This document shows, piece by piece, positions 2,667 through 53,418 of a stretch of 64,000 bases of DNA. A program made the translations under genes and the position numbers. The stretch covers positions 233,645 to 297,644 of the forward strand of contig NZ_JODL01000004.1 of the NCBI RefSeq assembly GCF_000718985.1. Reading direction: 5' to 3'. The notes below the pieces were generated by a model. It was not told the origin of the DNA and did not search any database. It saw only the letters and a list, made by a program, of their open reading frames with translations. This stretch comes from Streptomyces megasporus (GTDB taxonomy: Bacteria; Actinomycetota; Actinomycetes; Streptomycetales; Streptomycetaceae). Position 1 is the stretch's first letter. Each line of letters starts with the position of its first letter.

Positions 2667-3437
2667 TCACTCCGCCCGTGCGCCCGGCACGAGGTGTCGC
2701 GCTATGTGTTCCACCAGCGTGCCCTCGTGTTCGCGCAGATAGAAGTGGCCGCCGGAGAAGACCCGGGTGCGGTGGGTCCCCTCGGTGACCTCCGCCCAGG
2801 TGTCGAGGTCGGCCACCGGGCACACCGGGTCTCTGTCGCCGCCGTACGCGGTGACCGGCGCCCGCAGCAGCACGTCCGGGACTGCCGGACGGTAGCCGTC
2901 CAGCAACCGGTAGTCGGCCCGCAGGACCGGCATGAGCACCTCGCGCAGCTCGGGGTGCTCGTACACCTGGGCATCCGGGCCTCCGAGCCGGCGCACCGAG
3001 TCGAGCAGGGAGTCGTCGTCCAGCGCGCCGCTCCGGGCGGGGGCGGCGCGGTGCGGGGCGGCACGCCCGGAGACCAACAGCCCGCCGAGCACCGGACCGG
3101 CCTCGCGCTCCAGCCGCAGGGCGACCTCGTAGGCCACGGCGGACCCCATGCTGTGCCCGAACAGTACGACCGGTACGTCGAGGTAGGGCACGAGCGCGGC
3201 GGTGACGGCGTCGGCCAGCTCGGTCATCGACTCGACGGCCGGCTCCGACACGCGGTTCTGGCGGCCGGGGTACTGGACGGCCAGCACCTCGATTCCGGCG
3301 GGCAGCCGGGCCGCCCAGCCCGTGTAGGCGGTCGCGGCGCCGCCCGCGTGCGGGAGGCAGACCAGGCGCAGTCCGCAGCCCTCGGCCGGAATGCGGCGGA
3401 ACCAGGGATCGGAGGTATCCGTCCTCGCCATGCTCAT
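2667..3437 (-). CDS. Type II thioesterase of the NRPS locus
   Basis: A 256-residue alpha/beta hydrolase of the stand-alone thioesterase class that removes stalled or mis-primed acyl groups from carrier proteins. It shows the family start (LVCLPHAGG, near residue 26), a YPGRQNR segment, the nucleophile elbow GHSMG with Ser96, a GGDRDPVCP strand carrying the acidic residue, and SGGHFYL with the catalytic His. I chose the ATG at 3437 because GGGGGAGG precedes it; ATG 3431 is possible. It converges with the synthetase (stops 20 bases apart) and diverges from the diiron oxidase, so 3438-3577 probably holds two promoters. Confidence 0.92.
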   Translation of the reverse strand: MSMARTDTSDPWFRRIPAEGCGLRLVCLPHAGGAATAYTGWAARLPAGIEVLAVQYPGRQNRVSEPAVESMTELADAVTAALVPYLDVPVVLFGHSMGSAVAYEVALRLEREAGPVLGGLLVSGRAAPHRAAPARSGALDDDSLLDSVRRLGGPDAQVYEHPELREVLMPVLRADYRLLDGYRPAVPDVLLRAPVTAYGGDRDPVCPVADLDTWAEVTEGTHRTRVFSGGHFYLREHEGTLVEHIARHLVPGARAE

Positions 3438-6729: not shown

Positions 6730-7026
6730 CCCGTCCGTACCGCTCACCGCGGGCAATACCGCGGGCGATGAGGTCGAGGGCGACGACGGTGTCGGCCACG
6801 CCCAGGCCGAGGTTGTGGTGGGCGTGGATGCCCGTCTCGGTGGCCGGGTCGAGAACGTCGCGGTAGGCGCGGAGGCGGTCGCGGACCCCGTCCATGGTCA
6901 GCCGGCCACGTCCGTGCCCGGCTCGCGGGCGGCGGCGATGGTGCGGGCCTGCTCCACGGCGTACCGGTGCCGGACGGCGTGCATGCCGTCCCGCAGGGTG
7001 ACGTCCTGCACGTACAGGGAGGTCAT
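6730..7026 (-). pseudogene. Remnant of a 4-hydroxy-2-oxovalerate aldolase (MhpE-like)
   Basis: Two pieces in different frames recall the aldolase. Bases 7026-6898 read [20 protein letters not shown], the family N-terminus, run into [10 protein letters not shown] and stop. Bases 6895-6730 read [20 protein letters not shown] and [14 protein letters not shown], the middle of the protein, then [10 protein letters not shown], which looks like its C-terminus. An intact enzyme is about 330-350 residues; fewer than 100 remain, so at least two internal deletions and a frame change have occurred. It lies on the same strand as the MFS gene, 20 bases beyond its stop, and is surely non-functional. Confidence 0.7.
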
Positions 7027-7045
7027 GGGGGGCGCGGCCCGTGGA

Positions 7046-8308
7046 TCACCCCGGGCAGTCCGGGCGGCTCGGGCGGCGGGAGAAGTGGCGGGCGGTGGGC
7101 ACCGCGGCGGCCACGGCCGGCGCGAGGAAGCAGACCAGGGCACAGACGGCGAGTACCGGACGGATTCCGAAGACGTCGATGGCCGGGGCGATGAGGGCGA
7201 GGCCGACCGGGGCGAGACCGTAGGAGAGGAGGAAGTCCAGTGAGGAGACCCGGGCGAGCTTGTCCGGGTCGACCTCGCGCTGGGTGGCGGTGAACCACGG
7301 CACGTTGAACAGCTCGATCCCGACCCCCGCGACGGCGTAGGCGGCGATCACGACGGCGGGGTGCACCGGCAGCATCAGGCTGAGCGGCGCGAAACCGTAG
7401 GCGGCCAGACCGGCCAGGGCGCTCCAGCCCGGGGACCGTGCCCGCCGGCGGGCGGTGACCACGGCCCCCGCCAGAGCGCCCACCGTGTAGGCGGTCGTCG
7501 CCGCGGCGAGCACGACTTCGGTCCCGTACCGGTCGCGGCTGACCAGGGGCAGGGCGACACCGGTGGCGGAGTAGCCGGTGGCGATGACAGCGGTCAGAGC
7601 GGCGAGTCCGGCCACGAACCAGGGGTGCCGGCGCGCCTCGCGCACTCCGTCGGCGAACTCGCCGAGGAGGGAGGCACGTCGACCCGCGGTGGCCGGTGCG
7701 CCGGCGGCGCCGGGGCCGGGGACGAGGGCCGCGACGAGCCAGAGCAGACCGATCCCCAGGAGCAGCGCCCGGATGTCGAGGAGCACCGCGAGCAAGGCGG
7801 TCAGAGCGGGACCCACCAAGGTGGTGACACGGACCGCCAACGTCATGGCGGCGTTGGCCTGTTGCCTGCGGTCGGCATCGACGACCTCGGCGGTCAGGGC
7901 CTGGAACGCCGGCCGACAGGCCCCTTGCCCCGCTCCGGCCAGCGCGGACGCGGCGGCCATCAGCGGAAGCGAGCGTCCCAGCCCGGCGGTCATCAGCGGT
8001 GCCGCCACGGCTGCGGCGAGTCCGGCCCACAGCACGACACCCCGACGGGAGTGCCGGTCGGCCAGGACACCGCTGATCGGCACCGCCGCGAGGAATCCCA
8101 CCGTGCGAGTGGCCAGGACCAGGCCGAGGCCCGCTGGGGTGAGCGCCCGGTCGAGCACCGCGAGCCCGAGCACGAACGGCAGGGCCCAGGTGGCCAGGCC
8201 CGATGCCGTGGTACCGGCCCACAGCCTCAGGAAGGCGATGTCGAGCAGAACGCTCCTCCGGGGCGGCGGGCTCGCCTGGGAGGTCGCGGGTGCGGACGGA
8301 GTCGCCAC
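7046..8308 (-). CDS. MFS exporter, probable metallophore efflux
   Basis: A 420-residue, 12-helix major facilitator protein of the EntS-like drug/siderophore exporter type. The N-terminal tail is followed by [18 protein letters not shown], the loop motif [15 protein letters not shown] between helices 2 and 3, and paired six-helix halves around a cytoplasmic loop near residue 200. The GTG at 8308 is preceded by AGGAG at nine bases. A Fur/Zur-type box lies 145 bases upstream, and the divergent biosynthetic operon has its own box, so export and synthesis should be induced together. The substrate is inferred from context only. Confidence 0.88.
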
Positions 8309-8452
8309 GGCGTGATGCTCCTGTCGTCGAGGGGTGGATCGCCTGCGGGGCTCGGTGGTCCGTGTCCGTGCCGCCTGCCGGGAGCCACCGCATGGGCAGC
8401 GGGCAGGGCGAGGAAGCGCGCACGGACCGGAGGCGCACCAACGCCACCCTAG

Positions 8453-8467
8453 TGAAAATGATTGTCA
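8453..8467. promoter_or_regulatory. Fur-family (probable Zur) box 1
   Basis: TGAAAATGATTGTCA differs at one position from the Streptomyces Zur consensus as I recall it (TGAAAATGATTTTCA). The same 15-mer recurs exactly at 15682. It lies between the divergent MFS exporter and methyltransferase operon, nearer the exporter promoter. Confidence 0.75.
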
Positions 8468-8573
8468 TTAATCTACCCGCCGAACACCCGCGCCCGCCCG
8501 ACCCCCCTCGACGTCCACACCCCCTGCCGGCGCTCGACGTCGGCACTTCCGGGGATTCCCCACGGCCCTCTGA

Positions 8574-8588
8574 TGAATATGATTATCA
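8574..8588. promoter_or_regulatory. Fur-family (probable Zur) box 2
   Basis: TGAATATGATTATCA lies 35 bases before the methyltransferase start, where a repressor would cover the promoter. Read on the other strand it contains TAATGATAATCAT, the core of the classical Fur-family site. Iron control in Streptomyces normally uses DtxR-type boxes, so a Fur-type site points to Zur. Confidence 0.75.
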
Positions 8589-8622
8589 TTACGCGTCAGT
8601 CCTCCCGTGAGAAGGAGACCCA

Positions 8623-9360
8623 GTGGACACGACAGCAAGCGGGCCCGCCCTGCTGAAGCAGCTCCCGCCGCCACTGCCCGCCGAGCGGATCATCGCGGTC
8701 AACCAGCCCAAGGCCGACCTGCACACCACTCGCAGCCACGAGTGGAACGGGTGGACCTTCGAGGTACCGCCGGGTGTCTTCATGCCGGGCTGGACCAGCC
8801 GGATGATCCACGAGCGGCTGCTGGACGGCCGGATCGACGTACGCGGCCGCCGGTACGGGGCCATGGGCGTCGGGCTCGGTGTCGAGGCCGTGGTCGCCGG
8901 GGTCCGCGGGGCCCGGGAGATCCACGCGATCGACATCCACCCCGAGAGCGTGGCCACCACCGTCCGCCACTACGAGCGCCTGGTGGGCGAGCGCGAGGGC
9001 ACCGCCCTCATACCCGTGGTGGGGGATCTGTTCGACGGTCTGCCCGAAGGGGTGCGGCTGGACGTCGTCACCTTCAACCCACCCGCGGTCAGCCAGACCG
9101 TCAGCGACGACCCCGATGTCGTGCGCAACGTCTGCGTGGGCGCGTCCCTGCCGGCGAGGTTCTTCGCGCAACTCAACGAGAAGGACCTGTTGGCCCCCGG
9201 CGGAGAGGTGTTCCTCGTCGTCTCCAACACCGCCGACCTGCACACCATCATCCGGCACGCGCTGGACCAGGGGTTCACCCCGAGGATCGATCACCTGCAC
9301 GACTGGCAGGACGGCGTCGTCACCTTCCTGTTCCGGCTGACCCGCGGCGGCCGGGCATGA
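8623..9360 (+). CDS. SAM-dependent methyltransferase (RsmC/PrmC-like fold), first gene of the metallophore operon
   Basis: A 245-residue class I methyltransferase. The SAM-binding strand is MGVGLGVEAVVAGVRGA, followed by the acidic ribose-binding strand IHAIDIHPES. The catalytic loop is FNPPAVSQ, a variant of the NPPY loop seen in enzymes that methylate planar nitrogens. The GTG start has GAAGGAGA at proper spacing, just after Zur-type box 2. The stop overlaps the next gene as ATGA. It may methylate an amine, amide or carboxylate of the final chelator, or a precursor. The NPP loop alone does not fix the acceptor atom. Confidence 0.82.
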   Translation: MDTTASGPALLKQLPPPLPAERIIAVNQPKADLHTTRSHEWNGWTFEVPPGVFMPGWTSRMIHERLLDGRIDVRGRRYGAMGVGLGVEAVVAGVRGAREIHAIDIHPESVATTVRHYERLVGEREGTALIPVVGDLFDGLPEGVRLDVVTFNPPAVSQTVSDDPDVVRNVCVGASLPARFFAQLNEKDLLAPGGEVFLVVSNTADLHTIIRHALDQGFTPRIDHLHDWQDGVVTFLFRLTRGGRA

Positions 9361-10193
9361 GCGCGCGACCGTCCACCCCCCGTCCCGACACCGTCGACGA
9401 TCTGCTGGCCGCCGTCCTGGCGGGCGAACAGGGGCCGCGTCCCTCGGACCTCACGGCCACGAGCGTGTTCTGGATCCACCACGGAACCCGGCTCGCCGGA
9501 AGCGACGCCACCTACCTCAACCAGTACGTCCTGGTACGCCTGGGAGGCTCCTTCGGAGCCTGTGCCTTCGAGGCCGGCGAGATCGACCCGGCGATATGCC
9601 GGGACGCCTCGGGCAGCCCGCTGGAGACACTCCTGCGCGCGGCGCCCCGCCCGCTGCGGATCGCCGCCCTCGACGCCTACCTCGCCGAGGCCCGGCCCCA
9701 CCGGCAGGCGGCACACGCCGAACCGGTGACACTGCCCGCCGGGCCCCCCGAGGTGCGAGCCAGGGCCCGGGACGCGGCCATCGCCGGACTGCTGGACATC
9801 GACGACGGCGCCAAGGTCGCGCTGATCGGCGTCGTCAACCCCCTGGTCGCGGCAGTCCGTGAACGCGGCGGCGATCCGCTGCCGTGCGACTTCAACCTGC
9901 GCACGACGCAGTGGGGCGACCCGGTGACCGACGACATGGAGGAGGTCCTCGGCGCCGCCGACGCCGTGGTCGCCACCGGTATGACGCTCGGCAACGGCAC
10001 CTTCGACACGGTCCTGACGCGCTGCCGCGAACGGAGCGTGCCGCTCGTCGTCTACGCCCAGACCGGCAGCGCGGTGGCGCGCGCCTTCCTGGGGTCCGGG
10101 GTGACGGCGCTGTCCGCGGAGCCCTTCCCCTTCTCCCAGTTCAGCGCCGACCCGACCGTGCTGTACCGCTACCGCGTGGGGAGCGTCTCGTGA
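9357..10193 (+). CDS. DUF364-like Rossmann-fold protein (putative heavy-metal-chelation domain family)
   Basis: A 278-residue protein. Its C-terminal half (about 120-275) looks like the DUF364 family, often labelled heavy-metal chelation domain: KVALIGVVNPLVAAV, a DFNLRTTQWGDP segment, DAVVATGMTLGNGTFDTVL, and a final SAEPFPFSQFSADPTV. The N-terminal half contains a conserved-looking FWIHHGTRLAGSDATYLNQY. The family has no settled biochemistry; members occur near nickel, molybdenum and other metal-uptake genes. Here it is translationally coupled on both sides (ATGA, GTGA), so it should act in the same pathway, perhaps as a ligase, a dehydrogenase-like step or a metal-sensing partner. Confidence 0.65.
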   Translation: MSARPSTPRPDTVDDLLAAVLAGEQGPRPSDLTATSVFWIHHGTRLAGSDATYLNQYVLVRLGGSFGACAFEAGEIDPAICRDASGSPLETLLRAAPRPLRIAALDAYLAEARPHRQAAHAEPVTLPAGPPEVRARARDAAIAGLLDIDDGAKVALIGVVNPLVAAVRERGGDPLPCDFNLRTTQWGDPVTDDMEEVLGAADAVVATGMTLGNGTFDTVLTRCRERSVPLVVYAQTGSAVARAFLGSGVTALSAEPFPFSQFSADPTVLYRYRVGSVS

Positions 10194-11233
10194 CGGTGGC
10201 CACCACGCGGGCAGCGTCCGGCGCCGGCACCGCCGTCGTCGGCACCGGGCACGCCTCCTGTCACCACGGCGAGATCCTGCAGGGTGTCTTCCTCGACTCC
10301 CGCGGGCGGCGCTGCGCGGGCCTGGTCACCCTGCCCATGCCCGGCCCGGGCGCGCGAGCGGAGTTCACACGCCGCCCGGGCACCGCGCCCGAGGACGTGT
10401 CGGTGACCCCGGACGACCGCGCCAAGGCCCTGCGCGCGGCGGTCCTCGCCGTGCGGGAGTGCGCCGCACGGCGCCGGGAACCGGTGTGCGGCGGAGAACT
10501 GCGCCTGAGCGGCGACATTCCCGTGGGACTGGGGATGGGTTCCTCCAGCAGTGACGTCATCGCCGCCATACGCGCGGTCGCGGACTCCTTCGGTCTGCGC
10601 CTGCCGCCCGAGACGATCGCGCGTCTGTCGGTGCGGGCCGAGCGGGCGTCCGATCCGCTGATGCTCGACGGTCGGCCGCTGCTCTTCGCCCAGCGGGAGG
10701 GACGTGTGCTGGAGGTCCTCGGCGACGCGCTGCCGCCGGCCGTCGTCGTGGGCTGTGCCCTGGGCGGCGGCAAGCCGGTGGACACCCTCTCCCTTCCGGC
10801 ACAGGCCCACGACGACGAGGACCTGCACGCCTACGAACGCCTGCGGTCCCTGCTGCGGCGGGCGATCGCCGAGGCGGACCCGGCGCTCCTCGGCCGGGTC
10901 GCCACCGCCAGCGCGCGGCGCGCCCAACGCGTCCTTGGCCACGACGAGTTCGACGCCCTCGTGGAGATCGGCGGACGCGTCGGGGCCGTGGGCCTGCAGC
11001 TCGCCCACAGCGGCAACGTGGCCGGGGTGCTCTTCGACCCCGCCTCCCCCGATCTGGACCGCCGACTGCGGCGCTGCGCGAGAGCGCTCGAGGACAGCGG
11101 CATCCCGGTCACCCGTACCTTCACGACCTTCACCACCGGCGAGGAGCTCATGGATGGACGAGCACATAGCGGAAGCGGTAGGCCGACCGGACCTGATACG
11201 TCTCGGCGACGGACTCGTCTGCCTGCGCTTTGA
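10190..11233 (+). CDS. GHMP kinase, L-threonine kinase (PduX)-like
   Basis: A 347-residue GHMP-superfamily kinase. Near the N-terminus HHGEILQGVF matches the GE(L/I)xQG signature of PduX-type amino-acid kinases. The phosphate loop is IPVGLGMGSSSSD (about residues 108-120). PduX makes O-phospho-L-threonine for cobalamin; no cobalamin genes are seen here. The GTG start overlaps the previous stop (GTGA). The last 80 bases overlap the next gene in another frame, a strong sign of co-evolution with the cysteine-synthase-like enzyme, whose natural substrates are O-phospho or O-acetyl amino acids. The likely product is O-phospho-threonine, -serine or -homoserine. Confidence 0.78.
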   Translation: MTVATTRAASGAGTAVVGTGHASCHHGEILQGVFLDSRGRRCAGLVTLPMPGPGARAEFTRRPGTAPEDVSVTPDDRAKALRAAVLAVRECAARRREPVCGGELRLSGDIPVGLGMGSSSSDVIAAIRAVADSFGLRLPPETIARLSVRAERASDPLMLDGRPLLFAQREGRVLEVLGDALPPAVVVGCALGGGKPVDTLSLPAQAHDDEDLHAYERLRSLLRRAIAEADPALLGRVATASARRAQRVLGHDEFDALVEIGGRVGAVGLQLAHSGNVAGVLFDPASPDLDRRLRRCARALEDSGIPVTRTFTTFTTGEELMDGRAHSGSGRPTGPDTSRRRTRLPAL

Positions 11234-12164
11234 GACCATGAAGGTCGTCTCCGCCCTGGCGGCGGTGCGACACCTGCTCGAAACCGGCGCGGTGCGGCGC
11301 GGCGACACCCTGCTGGACAGCTCCAGCGGCATCTACGCCTACGCCTTGGCCCTCGCCTGCCACCGCCACGGCATGCGCTGCCACATCGTCGGCTCGACGA
11401 CCGTCGACCACGTGCTGCGCACCCAACTCGCCGTGTTGGGCGCCCACTTGGAGCAGATGGGCCCGAGCGACGACTTGAAGCTCGACCAGAAGCGCAGAGT
11501 GGAGCGCATCCAGGAGATCCTGCGCGAGCGCCCCGACTACCACTGGATGCGCCAGTACCACGACGACATCCACTACCTCGGCTATCGGGCCGTGGCCGAG
11601 CACATCGGGCGGGAGACCGACACCGATCGCCTCACCGTCGTCGGCGGAGTGGGGTCGGGGGCCTCCACCGGGGCTCTCGCCCGATATCTGCGGGAGAGGT
11701 CGCCCGGCGTCGAACTCGTCGGCGTCCAGCCCTTCGGCAGCGTCACCTTCGGCAGCGAGCACGTCGCCGACCCGGAGATCATCATCGCCGGGATCGGCAG
11801 TTCCATCCCCTTCGGGAACGTCACGCACACCCTCTACGACACCCTTCACTGGGTCGCCTTCGACGCCGCTCTCGCGGGCAGCGTCGACCTGCTGCGCCGG
11901 CACGCGGTCTTCGCCGGCCTGTCCACCGGGGCCGGCTATCTGGCCGCCCGGTGGGAGAGGGACCGTGCCCCCGAGCGGACCGTCCTGTTCATCGCCGCGG
12001 ACACCGGCCACCGGTACGTGGACTCGGTCTTCGCCCGGTACCGGGAGGCGTCGCGCGTCGAAGACCTCGTCCCCCGCGCCGTGACGACGGTGGACGAACT
12101 CGCCCTCCCCTGGTCGCGCATGGACTGGAACCGCGCGCCCGCTCCCGTCACCGCCGCGGTGTAG
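11154..12164 (+). CDS. PLP-dependent cysteine-synthase-family enzyme (SbnA-like)
   Basis: A 336-residue fold-type II PLP enzyme. The PLP lysine is in RFETMKVVSALAA (near residue 26-27). The substrate loop is LDSSSGIYAYALALACHRHG, a variant of the SSGN loop of cysteine synthases, and the phosphate-binding loop is VVGGVGSGASTGALARYL. SbnA makes a C-N bond on O-phosphoserine on the way to 2,3-diaminopropionate. A partner kinase in the same operon suggests a similar beta-replacement on O-phospho-threonine or -serine with an amine nucleophile. The start ATG 11154 lies inside the kinase gene. No SbnB-type dehydrogenase is seen, so the route is not a simple copy of the staphyloferrin one. Confidence 0.82.
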   Translation: MDEHIAEAVGRPDLIRLGDGLVCLRFETMKVVSALAAVRHLLETGAVRRGDTLLDSSSGIYAYALALACHRHGMRCHIVGSTTVDHVLRTQLAVLGAHLEQMGPSDDLKLDQKRRVERIQEILRERPDYHWMRQYHDDIHYLGYRAVAEHIGRETDTDRLTVVGGVGSGASTGALARYLRERSPGVELVGVQPFGSVTFGSEHVADPEIIIAGIGSSIPFGNVTHTLYDTLHWVAFDAALAGSVDLLRRHAVFAGLSTGAGYLAARWERDRAPERTVLFIAADTGHRYVDSVFARYREASRVEDLVPRAVTTVDELALPWSRMDWNRAPAPVTAAV

Positions 12165-12250
12165 CGGCCGGGGTTCGGCCTCCGACACGTCCGCCCTCGT
12201 GTCCACGGTCACCGCCCTGTCGTGTGCGACGGCGCACCGGCCGGTCGCGG

Positions 12251-12288
12251 AAGGCGCCCCCGCGGGGATGTCCCCGCGGGGGCGCCTT
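12251..12288. terminator. Perfect bidirectional hairpin terminator
   Basis: AAGGCGCCCCCGCGGGGA and its exact reverse complement are separated by two bases, an 18-bp stem. It lies between the convergent PLP-enzyme gene and the binding-protein gene and should stop transcription from both. Confidence 0.85.
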
Positions 12289-12348
12289 GGTCCCGCGTGC
12301 GCGGCCGGTGTCCCGCGAGAGGCTCCGTCCCTCGGCGGTGATCTCCGC

Positions 12349-13365
12349 TCAGGCCTTGAGGGTGCGCAGGTACTTCGCGAACTTCTCCAGGCCGTCGATG
12401 TTGCGCGGCCCGCTGATCCCCTCGTTGTAGTCGAGGACGAAGAAGTTGTTCTTCTCGACGGCGGGCAGCTTGCCGGTGCGGGGCGACTTCTTCAGGAAGT
12501 CGATCTTCTCCTGGGCGGGCCGGTCGCCGTAGTCGAGGATGATGACGACCTCGGGTTCGGCCTCGGTGACGGCCTCCCAACTCACCTGGGTCCACCGCTG
12601 ATCCAAGCCGTCGAAGATGTTCCTGCCGCCCGCCGTCTTGATGATGTCGTTGGGCGGGACCTGGCTGCCGGCGGTGAACGGCTGGTCCGTGCCCGAGTCG
12701 TAGAGGAAGACCGGCACCGGCTCGCCCTCGGGGGCCTTCGCGGCCACGGCCTCCACGCGCTTCCTCAGACCGTTCACGACCTCCTTCGCTCTCTCCTCCA
12801 CCCCGAAGATCCTCCCCAGGCGCTCCAGGTCGGAGTAGAGGGCCTTGAACGGGGTGATCTTCTCCGGGTACTCGGGATAGTTGAAGCAGCTCTCGGTGTG
12901 CATGAAGCTCTGGATGCCGAGCTTGTCCAGGATCTCCGGGGTGATACCCCGCTGGTCGCTGAAGCCCGAGTTCCAGCCCGCCACCACGAAGTCGGCCTTG
13001 GCGTCCACGACGAGTTCCTTGTTGAGGAGGTCGTCGCCGAGCATCTTCACCTTGGCGTACTCGGCCGCCCACGGCGACTCGGTCACGGGCGGGTTCGCCG
13101 GCGGCATCACATAGCCCAGGACGTGGTCGGTCAGGCCGAGGCTGAACAGCTTGTCGGCGCTGCCTCCCTCGTAGGCGACGGCCCGCTTGGGGGTCGTGTA
13201 CTCCACCGGCTCACCGCACCTGTTGACGGTGACCTTCTCCGACTTCGCGGACTCGGCGTCCGAGTCGACCTCGGCGCCGCACCCGCTGAGCAGCAGTGTG
13301 GCCGCGAGGGCGGAGCCGAGGGCGGCACGCCCGCGCGCGGCAGTCGAGGGGCGGGTCATGGGCAT
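12349..13365 (-). CDS. Siderophore-type ABC transporter substrate-binding lipoprotein
   Basis: A 338-residue FecB/FepB-like binding protein. The signal peptide ends in a lipobox (LLLSGC, Cys29), so it is a membrane-anchored lipoprotein. The mature part has two lobes, with KRAVAYEGGSADKLFSLGL near the start and VVIILDYGDRPAQ in the second lobe. The family binds metal-chelate complexes of iron, haem, cobalamin or other metals. ATG 13365 has CGGAAG upstream and overlaps the ATPase stop by ten bases. It is the last gene of a permease-ATPase-binding-protein operon whose upstream region carries Zur-type box 3, so the ligand is probably the metal complex of the product made next door. Confidence 0.9.
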   Translation of the reverse strand: MPMTRPSTAARGRAALGSALAATLLLSGCGAEVDSDAESAKSEKVTVNRCGEPVEYTTPKRAVAYEGGSADKLFSLGLTDHVLGYVMPPANPPVTESPWAAEYAKVKMLGDDLLNKELVVDAKADFVVAGWNSGFSDQRGITPEILDKLGIQSFMHTESCFNYPEYPEKITPFKALYSDLERLGRIFGVEERAKEVVNGLRKRVEAVAAKAPEGEPVPVFLYDSGTDQPFTAGSQVPPNDIIKTAGGRNIFDGLDQRWTQVSWEAVTEAEPEVVIILDYGDRPAQEKIDFLKKSPRTGKLPAVEKNNFFVLDYNEGISGPRNIDGLEKFAKYLRTLKA

Positions 13366-14156
13366 GGTGTGGCACTTCCGTTCAGTGGAGAAGGGGACAG
13401 CGAGTACAGCAGTTGCGGATCGCCGGTCAGCGGGTGCGGGACGACGTCGGCGTGGACGCCGAACACGTCGCGGACCAGTTCCGCGGTCAGGACGTCGTGG
13501 GGGGTGCCGGCGGTCACCAGACGTCCTTGGGAGAGGACCGCCAGCCGGTCGCACGCGGCGGCGGCGAGGTTGAGGTCGTGCAGCACGACCAGGACGGTGA
13601 GACCCGAGCCGCGCAGCAGGGAGAGCAGTTCGACCTGGTGGCGTATGTCGAGGTGGTTGGTCGGCTCGTCCAGGACCAGGATCCGGGGTTCCTGGACGAG
13701 GGCGCGGGCGACCAGGACGCGCTGGCGTTCCCCGCCCGACAGGGTGAGGACGCCTCGCCGGGCGAGGTGGTGGACGTCCATCCGTCGCATCGCCCGTTCG
13801 CACAGCTCCCGTTCCCGGCGGTCGAGCGCCTGGTTGCCCTGGCGGTGGGGGGTGCGCCCGAGCGCGACGAGCTCCTCCACGGTGAAGTCGAGGTCCACGG
13901 CCCCGTCCTGGGTCAGCGCCGCGATGATCCGCGCGCTGTGGCGCGGCGTCAGGCGGAACAGATCGTCGTCGCCCACCCACACGGTGCCGGAGCTGGGACG
14001 CAACGCGCGGTACACGCACCTGAGGGCGGTGGACTTCCCGCTCCCGTTGGGACCGACCAGGCCCACGACCTGCCCGTCCGCCGCCTCCAGGGACAGGTCT
14101 CGCACCAGGGCCCTGCCGTCGGTCACCACCGAGAGTCCGTCGAGCCCGAGGTTCAT
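13356..14156 (-). CDS. Siderophore-type ABC transporter ATPase
   Basis: A 266-residue FepC/FhuC-like ATPase. It has Walker A GPNGSGKST (residues about 35-43), Q-loop AALTQDG, signature LSGGERQR, Walker B LVLDEPTNHLD and switch histidine VLHDLN. It sits between the permease (one base between stop and start) and the binding protein (ten-base overlap). Together they form a complete type II metallophore importer. Confidence 0.95.
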   Translation of the reverse strand: MNLGLDGLSVVTDGRALVRDLSLEAADGQVVGLVGPNGSGKSTALRCVYRALRPSSGTVWVGDDDLFRLTPRHSARIIAALTQDGAVDLDFTVEELVALGRTPHRQGNQALDRRERELCERAMRRMDVHHLARRGVLTLSGGERQRVLVARALVQEPRILVLDEPTNHLDIRHQVELLSLLRGSGLTVLVVLHDLNLAAAACDRLAVLSQGRLVTAGTPHDVLTAELVRDVFGVHADVVPHPLTGDPQLLYSLSPSPLNGSATPCP

Positions 14157-14157
14157 C

Positions 14158-15297
14158 TCAGCGTCCTCCGAACATGTAGGCCCTGCGGCGCATCAGGACG
14201 ATGAACACCGGGACTCCGACGAGCGCCGTGATGACGCCCAAGGGGAGTTCACGCGGCGCGACGAGCGTCCGGGAGACCAGGTCGACCCAGACCATGAAGA
14301 CCGCGCCGGCCGGTGGGGCTACGGCCAGGACCCGGGCGTGGGTGGAGCCGACCGCCATGCGCACCAGGTGGGGCATGACCAGCCCGACGAAACCGATGGC
14401 GCCGCTCGTGGCGACCATCGCGCCGGTGAGGAGCGACACGACCACGAGGAGGCTCTTGCGGTGCCGGTCCGGATCGACGCCCAGGCTCGCGGCGGTCTCG
14501 TCGCCGAGGGCCATGACGTCCAGCACGCGGCTGCGCCGGTGCAGCAGGACCACGCCGAGCAGCACGATCGCCGTGACCGCGGGGAGCGCGCCCCAGGTGG
14601 CGGCCCCGAAGCTGCCCATCGTCCAGTACAGGACCGTGCTGGTGGCCTCGCTGCCGGGAACCAGGTAGACGATCACGCTCATCACCGCCTGGAACCCGAG
14701 CGACATGGCCACCCCCGTCAGGACGAGACGCAGTGGGGACAGGCCGCCCCGGCCGGCCGACGCGGCGTACACCAGCAAGGAGGCCGCCAGGGCGCCGATG
14801 AAGGCGCCGACGGACATCGCGTGGATGCCCAGCGCCGCCAGTCCGCCCGTGACCGTGACGGCGACCGCGCCCACGGACGCGCCCGAGGAAACGCCCAGGA
14901 CGAAGGGGTCGGCCAGGGCATTGCGCACCATGGCCTGAATGGCGACACCGACGGCGCTCAGCCCCGCTCCCACCAGTGCCGCCAACAGCACACGTGGGGT
15001 GCGAATCTCCCAGACGATCTGATAAGCGGTCACCTCGTCCGCCGCGATACGGCCGCCGCTGAGAGCGGCCCACAGGTATCGGGCGGTGTCGTCCGGCGCG
15101 ATCACGGCCGGCCCCATTCCGATGGCCAGGACGACGGATACGGCCAAGAGGACGAGCAGAAGGGCACACGCCGGCGCCGAGCCCGTACGGGAGCCGAGCC
15201 GGTCGGCCGGCCCCGCCGGGGGCTCGGGTGGCTGCGCGCCGGCAGGCGCGGCGCCGTCGACGCTCGCCGAGGGCGTGGAAGTCGCGGGCGGGGACAT
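14158..15297 (-). CDS. FecCD-type ABC transporter permease, single gene
   Basis: A 379-residue permease of the BtuC/FecCD family with about ten membrane helices. Family segments are RTPRVLLAALVGAGLSAVGVAIQ, shown here only in part as RVLLAALVGAGLSAVGVA, then LGVSSGASVGA, and GAIGFVGLVMPHLVRM near the C-terminus. The first 50 residues are a Pro/Ala-rich cytoplasmic tail. ATG 15297 follows GAAAGG; an upstream ATG would add unlikely residues. Only one permease gene is present, so it presumably works as a homodimer. The long leader (to Zur-type box 3 near 15690) is unusual. Confidence 0.93.
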   Translation of the reverse strand: MSPPATSTPSASVDGAAPAGAQPPEPPAGPADRLGSRTGSAPACALLLVLLAVSVVLAIGMGPAVIAPDDTARYLWAALSGGRIAADEVTAYQIVWEIRTPRVLLAALVGAGLSAVGVAIQAMVRNALADPFVLGVSSGASVGAVAVTVTGGLAALGIHAMSVGAFIGALAASLLVYAASAGRGGLSPLRLVLTGVAMSLGFQAVMSVIVYLVPGSEATSTVLYWTMGSFGAATWGALPAVTAIVLLGVVLLHRRSRVLDVMALGDETAASLGVDPDRHRKSLLVVVSLLTGAMVATSGAIGFVGLVMPHLVRMAVGSTHARVLAVAPPAGAVFMVWVDLVSRTLVAPRELPLGVITALVGVPVFIVLMRRRAYMFGGR

Positions 15298-15456
15298 GTG
15301 ACCGGCCTTTCGAAAGCGGAAGACGACACTCACGGGAAGAGGGGCCCGCCACGGCGGTCTTCGCACGCGGACGGAGACCGGCGACGGCCGCCGGGGGCCG
15401 TATCGGCTGCGGGCGAGGGGTGCGGACGGAGAACCCGTCCGGAAGCGCTCCCGGTG

Positions 15457-15612
15457 CTAGCGACAGGGAGCCGGGGACATGCCGTGAGGGCGGGGCTCCG
15501 CTCGTCCGCGGCCTGTCGGTACGCCGACTGACGCCAGGAGGCCGATCGGCTCGGCTCCGCTCATCGGCTGCCGTGCGGGCCGCTCCGCGGGCAGGAACAC
15601 CAAAGCCTTCAC
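15457..15612 (-). CDS. Possible 51-residue small protein after Zur-type box 3
   Basis: A GTG at 15612 is preceded by GGGGGAGAGG at proper spacing and opens a frame of 51 codons starting VKALVFLPAERPARQP. It lies between Zur-type box 3 and the permease, where it would be the first product of the transporter mRNA. I recognise no family; Pro/Arg richness is typical of chance frames in this DNA. The strong ribosome site and position are the only support. Confidence 0.3.
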   Translation of the reverse strand: MKALVFLPAERPARQPMSGAEPIGLLASVGVPTGRGRAEPRPHGMSPAPCR

Positions 15613-15681
15613 CTCTCCCCCTTTTGAGCAGTCGGGCGGGCGGGAACCGAGCCCCACTCGCGGGACCAACACTCCATCAAC

Positions 15682-15696
15682 TGAAAATGATTGTCA
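15682..15696. promoter_or_regulatory. Fur-family (probable Zur) box 3
   Basis: TGAAAATGATTGTCA, identical to box 1. It lies 385 bases upstream of the permease on the minus strand and about 100 bases upstream of the GNAT gene on the plus strand; it could control either or both. The local sequence is AT-rich, as expected of a promoter. Confidence 0.75.
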
Positions 15697-15797
15697 AGAG
15701 CGCCTGTTGCCTCGCCCGCCCCATCCACCGCCCGGCCGGCCGACAAGCGATCCCGCCGCACACGTGGTCGCGGCGGGTCGTTGACATACTTCGGCCC

Positions 15798-16325
15798 ATG
15801 GACACGAGCGCCGGGGCAGGCCGGATGCGGCCGGGCCGGGTGGCGCCCGGGATCGCGTCGGGCCGCCCCGTGGCACGGGCGCTGCGTCCCGCCAAGCCGG
15901 CGGCTGTCGAGACGGTCACGGAGCCGCGGGCGACGGTGCTGCGCCCGGACCCGGAGCGGTTGGGACGGTTCGACGAGCATCGGGTCCGGCGGCGGCTGCG
16001 GGACTCCCTCTCCCCGCGGCACACGTCGGTCATCGTGGCCGATGGCGCCTTCGCGGGCTGCGTCACCGTGCGACCCGTGGAGGACGGGCGGCGGCTGGAG
16101 CGCTTCCATCTCGCTCCGACCCTCCAGGGCCGAGGGCTCGGATCGGCTGTGCTGCGGACACTGCCACAACGGATCGACGCCGACGACGTGCCCGTTCGAC
16201 CGAACGTCCTGCGGGGCAGCGCCGCCCGGCGGCTGCACGAGCGCCACGGGTTCACCGTGGCGGGCCAGGACCCCGTCGACGTCTCCATGGTGCGGCGGCC
16301 GGGTGGGGGCGTCCCGGCGACGTGA
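15798..16325 (+). CDS. GNAT-family N-acetyltransferase
   Basis: A 175-residue GNAT protein. The acetyl-CoA signature is LAPTLQGRGLGSAVLR (about residues 107-122) after the strand FAGCVTVRPVEDGRRLERFH. The C-terminal RLHERHGFTVAGQD completes the fold. The first 45 residues are low-complexity, and the N-terminal helices that normally hold the substrate are short, so the true start may be later or the protein partly degraded. The acceptor is unknown. It lies just after Zur-type box 3 and may belong to the metallophore set or simply adjoin it. Confidence 0.7.
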   Translation: MDTSAGAGRMRPGRVAPGIASGRPVARALRPAKPAAVETVTEPRATVLRPDPERLGRFDEHRVRRRLRDSLSPRHTSVIVADGAFAGCVTVRPVEDGRRLERFHLAPTLQGRGLGSAVLRTLPQRIDADDVPVRPNVLRGSAARRLHERHGFTVAGQDPVDVSMVRRPGGGVPAT

Positions 16326-40142: not shown

Positions 40143-40235
40143 GGAGGCGTAAGGGTGCCTGGTGGCCCTCCCGGTCTTCAAAACCGAGGTGTCCGAGGAT
40201 CTCGGGCAGGTGGGTTCGATTCCCATCCGCCTCCG
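40143..40235 (+). tRNA. selC: Selenocysteine tRNA, anticodon TCA
   Basis: A 93-base tRNA, far longer than ordinary ones. GGAGGCG at the 5' end pairs with CGCCTCC at the 3' end. The anticodon loop is CTTCAAA with TCA at 40178-40180. There is a long variable arm (about 40185-40207), and the T arm is GTGGGTTCGATTCCCAT. No CCA is encoded. Its place between selD and selB/selA confirms the assignment. Confidence 0.95.
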
Positions 40236-52978: not shown

Positions 52979-53044
52979 CTGCGGAGGCCTCCTGGTCCGT
53001 ACGACCTGCGAGGGGCACCACGGCGCGGGCGCCCGAACGGCCTC

Positions 53045-53262
53045 CCCCTCTGTCATCTCGACCTGAGAGCTTCACCGGTCCGCGCCCGCGGTCCGGTTTT
53101 CACCGTCGGTGAGGAGGGGCTGCGGTGTCGCTCGTCCGCGGCCCGCCCTGCTTTCCAGAGTGACCTCGCCCGCGCGGTACGTGAGCCTGAGAGATTCCGG
53201 GGAGGATTTGCTCCTTCGGCGCCTCCGGCGTCTTCCGTCGGAGGACTCTCCCGCTCGGGGTC
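53045..53262 (-). promoter_or_regulatory. Tandem glycine riboswitch
   Basis: Read on the minus strand, AGCGGGAGAG near 53255 opens the first aptamer, followed by GCCGAAGGAGCAAA and TCTCAGGC. The second contains CACCGACGGTGAAAACCGG and closes with AGCTCTCAGGT near 53065, just before gcvP. Two aptamers upstream of a glycine cleavage gene are the classic cooperative glycine riboswitch, normally an activator. Confidence 0.9.
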
Positions 53263-53418
53263 AGCAGCCGTTTCAGAGCCTACCAGCGCCGGATGTCGCG
53301 GGCCTCGCGTCGGTTCCGGTTCCGGTTTCGAGTGGCCGATGCACCGAATGTGCCCTTTCGTTGTTTGTAGGAACCGTTTCCGAGTACGCGCGAACTTATG
53401 CGAGCAGTTGGAGGGACC

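Follow-up and report, generated by a model that had tools for sequence, protein, structure and literature searches.

As regards zinc-chelating metabolites of actinomycetes, [S,S]-ethylenediaminedisuccinic acid ([S,S]-EDDS) of Amycolatopsis japonicum is described as a zincophore under Zur control, with a structure said to point to a route with neither a non-ribosomal peptide synthetase (NRPS) nor an NRPS-independent siderophore (NIS) synthetase (PMC4993170; here and below, papers are cited for their accessible portions), and its control by Zur is also stated in PMC6103462, PMC13379591 and PMC9252823. Coelibactin of Streptomyces coelicolor is a further Zur-controlled actinomycete zincophore (PMC5472717, PMC6103462), which is described as non-ribosomally synthesized (PMC3430247). 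In this study, we analysed a candidate locus of this kind in Streptomyces megasporus, at positions 7046-15696 of a 64-kb stretch of DNA (the window) on contig C4 of the source genome (G000; 5.85 Mb, 195 contigs), and we regard this island as a likely Zur-repressed zincophore locus. Like the EDDS system, it comes from an actinomycete, carries Zur boxes and displays no NRPS, NIS (IucA/IucC) or opine enzyme among its eight proteins in Pfam and NCBIfam searches; the likeness to the EDDS genes, which we take to be aesA-H, is one of description and not of compared aes sequences. In contrast to EDDS, no lyase or decarboxylase was matched among the eight proteins. The initial annotation of this DNA had named coelibactin as the precedent and had expected synthesis without a modular synthetase; the expectation agrees with our searches, and coelibactin is Zur-controlled as claimed, but the island proteins contain no NRPS domain and EDDS, which that annotation overlooked, is nearer. 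Staphylopine and pseudopaline, small metallophores that are exported and re-imported, also resemble our reading of the island, although their opine dehydrogenase and nicotianamine-synthase-like (CntL-like) enzyme were unmatched in the island proteins. With respect to staphyloferrin B, SbnA is the top NCBIfam model for one of the island enzymes, but the match is below cut-off, no SbnB-like partner was matched among the island proteins in Pfam or NCBIfam, and SbnA/SbnB falls on the opposite side of the split in the tree described below.

The island comprises three transcription units, and its gene content, coupling, conservation and boxes, as well as the agreement of these boxes with the Zur motif and with the genome's own znu-zur boxes, were all established by computation. 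The first unit, on the minus strand, is a gene for a major facilitator superfamily (MFS) exporter, which would probably serve zincophore efflux (7046..8308; PF07690, 130.4 bits), and it stands head-to-head with a four-gene operon on the plus strand. This operon encodes a HemK-like S-adenosylmethionine (SAM) methyltransferase with an FNPPA motif (8623..9360; NF011529, 38.5 bits against a cut-off of 162), a DUF364 protein (9357..10193; PF04016, 46.9 bits, cut-off 23), a GHMP kinase (10190..11233; PF00288, 53.6 bits) and a SbnA- or cysteine-synthase-like enzyme dependent on pyridoxal phosphate (PLP), called PALP hereafter (11154..12164; PF00291, 115.5 bits). The third unit, on the minus strand, is an ATP-binding cassette (ABC) importer made up of a substrate-binding lipoprotein (SBP, 12349..13359; PF01497, 92.4 bits), an ATPase (13356..14156; PF00005, 107.6 bits) and a FecCD-type permease (14158..15297; PF01032, 294.9 bits). 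The gene set read in the initial annotation, namely the MFS protein, methyltransferase, DUF364 protein, kinase, cysteine-synthase-like enzyme and ABC importer, is thus confirmed by the Pfam profile scores. Stop and start codons overlap as ATGA at 9357, GTGA at 10190 and ATGA between ATPase and SBP, the kinase and PALP reading frames overlap by about 80 nt, and the island genes are predicted to be translationally coupled.

Three boxes accompany these units. The sequence TGAAAATGATTGTCA occurs identically as box 1 (8453..8467, plus strand), about 145 bp upstream of the MFS start, and as box 3 (15682..15696, plus strand), upstream of the importer operon, while box 2 (8574..8588, plus strand), about 35 bp upstream of the methyltransferase start of the biosynthetic operon, reads TGAATATGATTATCA and differs from them at 2 bases. 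The three sites gave five strand matches, compared with a mean of 0.07 in shuffled sequence, where five or more were reached in 0 of 100 shuffles. The S. coelicolor Zur motif derived from chromatin immunoprecipitation is tGaNNatSatNNtCa (PMC5472717); since it is palindromic, a scan of one strand suffices, and it has exactly three exact matches in the window, which are the island boxes, with a single one-mismatch site at position 1241. Across the whole genome, seven distinct sites match TGAAAATGATTNTCA with no more than two mismatches, namely the three island boxes, a pair ahead of znuA-znuC-znuB-zur and two elsewhere, and the reversed pattern, scanned as a control, gave 0 sites. The genes behind the znu-zur pair encode ZnuA (271 bits), an ABC ATPase, an ABC-3 permease and then a 142-residue FUR-family protein, a set that looks like a znu-zur operon; one of its two boxes differs from the island box at one base, the other at more. 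Because boxes of the same type stand before its own znu-zur genes, the genome itself marks the island boxes as Zur boxes. The exact motif matches, these znu-zur boxes and the conservation in relatives together support control of the island by Zur, which we hold to be almost certain, and the same inference in the initial annotation is borne out at the level of sequence. Its placing of three near-identical boxes at the unit starts stood for boxes 1 and 2 only, box 3 lying 385 bp away. Control by iron (DtxR) or nickel was set aside on account of the exact Zur motif matches and the similar boxes before the genome's own znu-zur genes, no scan for DtxR or nickel boxes having been made.

For the conservation analysis, genome contigs were scanned with the methyltransferase, which confirmed 87 stretches, and the best 80 of these gave 79 loci. 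As L029 duplicates L028 at the opposite end of one contig, it was dropped, so that 78 loci were counted, with genes matched at 48% identity or more. Both ends of this Amycolatopsis palatopharyngis contig bear the same cluster stretch, perhaps through assembly or a terminal repeat. PALP recurs in 76 of the 78 loci, DUF364 in 72, MFS in 57, the ATPase in 48, the kinase in 46, and SBP and permease in 44 each; DUF364 is present in 72 of the 76 methyltransferase-found loci with PALP. When boxes with at most two mismatches were sought no more than 500 bp from where a methyltransferase, MFS or permease match starts, 62 of the 78 loci had one (39 with at most one mismatch). The first 20 loci contained 23 boxes in real sequence, and two first-order Markov shuffles yielded 1 and 0. 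Pooling all 94 boxes of the 78 loci, regardless of their distance from a start, gives TGAAAATGATTNTCA, in which position 7 is sometimes C. The kinase, DUF364, PALP, MFS, ABC importer and box all occur together in 25 of the 59 loci with full flanks. Where the kinase has no match, DUF364 and PALP are adjacent in 12 loci, and in 11 loci the order is PALP-DUF364. The co-occurrence of the four-gene operon with the ABC genes and the box, which had been put forward as a check, therefore recurs in many relatives, but the set is not fixed, methyltransferase and kinase each being sometimes missing. One Kibdelosporangium locus (L069, 9947-16907) has a methyltransferase-PALP-DUF364 cluster followed by an SBP-family gene, a permease, a RimK-like ATP-grasp protein and another MFS gene.

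Outside this collection, protein searches at E of 0.001 or less gave 301 methyltransferase, at least 1020 DUF364 and at least 572 kinase relatives, distant ones included, with proteins of Streptomyces venezuelae among those of the kinase. Among 200 Streptomycetaceae genomes, 44 have DUF364 matches, of which 11 reach 68% identity or more (counting the source genome), 30 stand at about 40-44% and 3 are weak. Five of the 11 close genomes have DUF364-kinase-PALP beside a different ABC set with no adjoining methyltransferase match, L173 being cut by its contig, and in one of the five (G044) the best methyltransferase match in the genome reaches 24.5 bits. Apart from the source genome, a box stands close to a unit start in seven of the ten close genomes, L128 has an exact box about 5 kb off, L173 is cut and L174 has none. 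In a 396-genome sample of the phylum, 94 gave a methyltransferase match, close only in the source genome and G060, the others at 44.8 bits or less. In Streptomyces violaceorubidus (L011), a Zur-type box overlaps the ATG of the permease gene, an arrangement also given for a putative Zur site at SCO0476 in S. coelicolor (PMC10320115), where SCO0472 and SCO0474 are in the table of the Zur regulon (PMC6103462) and SCO0475 is Zur-regulated (PMC4726154). SCO0472-SCO0476 as the S. coelicolor counterpart is only a lead by analogy, and SCO0472, a lipoprotein (PMC6593405), fits the L011 gene order poorly.

Within the operon, PALP is, by these match counts, the most conserved core gene. Its best NCBIfam model is SbnA (TIGR03945, 137.4 bits; cut-off 349.95), and the motifs E.mK, with its lysine, and S.SG are conserved across a mixed, partly redundant set of 109 rows with identity of at least 28%. 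The SbnA neighbourhoods L169-L171, viewed as lists of open reading frames (ORFs), were uninformative. The DUF364 protein, above the cut-off for PF04016, is the sole PF04016 match in the genome. Its model (predicted local distance difference test, pLDDT, 86.9) has 3npg and 3l5o as best folds, with a TM-score of 0.51-0.59 by query length, the fold matching over most of the length at 16-17% identity. The accessible text of the DUF364 structure paper gives no proven reaction and suggests condensation or hydrolysis (PMC2954201). Because DUF364 is mostly kept when kinase or methyltransferase is lost, this usual core enzyme would probably perform a central step. A Serratia paper names DUF364 in its abstract (PMC4046660); no paper linking DUF364 to a zincophore was found by titles and abstract openings, in a search that left most subscription literature outside. 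The kinase displays the conserved GHMP motifs HHGE-lQG and GlGmGSS in 56 rows, and the probable role suggested by its sequence is to activate a hydroxy amino acid; as regards the initial annotation's likening of it to PduX, an L-threonine kinase, the GHMP domain was matched and the UniRef name of one relative (P0247) starts 'Uncharacterized protein involved in propanediol u'. Friulimicin-type DabA/B/C may offer a precedent for a kinase with a PLP enzyme, but a literature search gave no paper on it and it was not used as evidence here.

The methyltransferase is predicted to be an optional tailoring step. Its AlphaFold2 (AF2) model has a mean pLDDT of 93.6 and its best PDB folds are HemK2/N6AMT1, with the carbamoyl N-methyltransferase Asc-Orf2 at rank 7. 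An aminobutyryl-transferase (nicotianamine-synthase-like) reading of this protein is countered by the FNPPA motif, invariant in 58 sequences, and by the HemK2-type folds. A PADLOC scan gave one weak match, mad2 at 32.1 bits, which we take as general methyltransferase similarity.

In the proposed mechanism, we infer that a chelator is made and that it binds zinc, as well as every chemical step. Under zinc scarcity, Zur would leave the three boxes and exporter, biosynthetic operon and importer would be transcribed. The GHMP kinase would phosphorylate an amino acid (serine, threonine or homoserine) at its side-chain hydroxyl, and the SbnA-like PLP enzyme would let the amine of a second amino acid displace the phosphate, giving a diamino-polycarboxylate skeleton. 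DUF364 might then carry out a further step, condensation or cleavage, and the HemK-like enzyme might N-methylate the product, after which the MFS protein would export the chelator and the FecCD-type ABC system would import the zinc complex. In loci without the kinase, the phospho-amino acid could come from primary metabolism. The pairing of a kinase with a substitution-type PLP enzyme suggests hydroxyl activation followed by displacement by an amine, and we rate this amine-substitution chemistry as an even proposition.

A substitution-type PLP enzyme would equally suit an aminopolycarboxylate of the aes class, and it is possible, with roughly one chance in three, that the island belongs to that class (EDDS/EDHA), with EDDS-type chemistry but another gene order and tailoring, a reading that overlaps with ours. 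EDDS is itself a Zur-controlled zincophore for which a non-NRPS, non-NIS route is indicated (PMC4993170, PMC6103462), and the ATP-grasp ligases and TauD-family gene near some relatives would suit an EDHA-like product. On the other hand, the EDDS skeleton seems to need a decarboxylase or lyase, whereas a search limited to the eight island proteins matched none, and EDHA is described as iron-responsive (PMC10702961).

As for transport, the FecCD-type importer is complete, with SBP (PF01497), FecCD permease and ATPase together, and the SBP has a lipobox-like LLLSGC near its N-terminus; the pairing of this importer with the MFS protein fits the export and re-import that had been inferred earlier. 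The suggestion of hydrolysis as well as condensation for DUF364 (PMC2954201) would also accommodate scavenging only, in which foreign zinc complexes would enter through the importer and be altered or broken down by the operon's enzymes. The kinase and the substitution-type PLP enzyme look anabolic, however, and the MFS gene is head-to-head with the operon, so that we judge scavenging very improbable.

Several observations weigh against the island as a zincophore locus with the core proposed here. Four of the 76 loci with methyltransferase and PALP (L073, L074, L077, L078) are without DUF364, two more (L039, L064) have the methyltransferase with neither PALP nor DUF364, and 16 of the 78 have no box near a unit start, contig ends not being checked singly. 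L174 has DUF364, kinase, PALP, MFS and ABC set but no box. PALP is so far under the SbnA cut-off that the profile fixes neither substrate nor reaction. Box 3, at 385 bp, is far from the permease start, and beside two of the genome's box-like sites no zinc gene was recognised. In NCBIfam, the ABC proteins score best against models named 'putative F420-0 ABC transporter', B12 importers being among the further matches, and since all these matches are below cut-off, homology leaves the cargo unfixed. These names would suit a Zur-controlled zinc-sparing or salvage pathway with a cofactor-like or amino-acid product and an F420-0- or corrinoid-like ABC cargo, and Zur regulons are known to hold ribosomal-protein paralogues and enzymes too (PMC6103462). 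We consider such a pathway unlikely, as PALP and DUF364 seem to replace no known zinc enzyme and as, in many loci, the boxes accompany a biosynthetic operon along with an MFS exporter and a siderophore-type importer.

With respect to box 3 and the other box-like sites, the relative L131 has a box identical to box 3 at 68 bp from the end of its orthologous permease match, and box 3 may also serve the divergent GNAT gene. No riboswitch was matched by Rfam at the gathering threshold in the 385-bp leader (15297-15682) before the permease, and a promoter and terminator scan of 7000-16000 gave 0 and 0. Of the two further genome sites, that on C24 is flanked by the ends of two genes, for an SNF-family transporter and for pyruvate dehydrogenase E1, and a Pfam scan of two ORFs adjacent to the other, on C13, gave no match; these two sites are recorded at L088 3068-3082 and L086 about 2992-3006.

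A second architecture surrounds the DUF364 genes of 40-44% identity, which co-locate with an ATP-grasp ligase (LAL_C2 type), PALP, a protein read as enolase-superfamily-like and MFS, and all five wider regions contain a class I methyltransferase. The PALP of L126 reaches 240.4 bits with the SbnA model, still below cut-off, and a CobW-family gene adjoins the cluster there. Boxes with at most two mismatches were found in 12 of the 19 genomes examined out of the 30 found (10 in 3.8-kb loci and 2 in wider regions), a count that stands without a shuffle control. The stretch L126 4443-11442 and its relatives among L104-L127 form a candidate sister zincophore cluster in many Streptomycetaceae. In the PALP tree, 26 rows from both architectures split, with support 100/99, from 30 other PALPs, a set that a TIGR03945 search of 149 genomes retained and that does not cover all PALPs; the tree has an arbitrary midpoint root and flagged long branches, and only this split is used.

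Taking both architectures together, we tentatively propose, with the chances slightly on the low side of even, that DUF364 and the SbnA-like PLP enzyme are the usual core of a widespread actinomycete family of Zur-controlled zincophores that we did not find described, in which DUF364 would represent a new bond-forming or bond-breaking class and a kinase, methyltransferase, ATP-grasp ligase, epimerase-like enzyme or hydroxylase would vary the core to give different chelators. In the literature covered, no actinomycete zincophore other than EDDS is said to use a non-NRPS, non-NIS route, and the island offers PF04016, a family with no proven reaction in the accessible text of PMC2954201, a testable role in zinc acquisition. 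With a recurring core and exchangeable tailoring genes, a single biochemical assignment would explain many clusters, and if searches based on NRPS or NIS enzymes miss this cluster type, many strains may carry an unrecognised chelator.

The nearest flanking genes belong to other functions. On the left of the island are a Rieske-domain protein and, by ORF reading, a sugar-nucleotide-transferase-like gene, and on the right are GNAT, Spo0M and TerB proteins. Elsewhere in the window, a selenocysteine tRNA was detected at 40143-40234 on the plus strand (RF01852, 77.5 bits), so this actinomycete may have a selenocysteine system, and tandem glycine riboswitch aptamers lie at 53043-53263 on the minus strand (RF00504, 66.2 and 34.7 bits).

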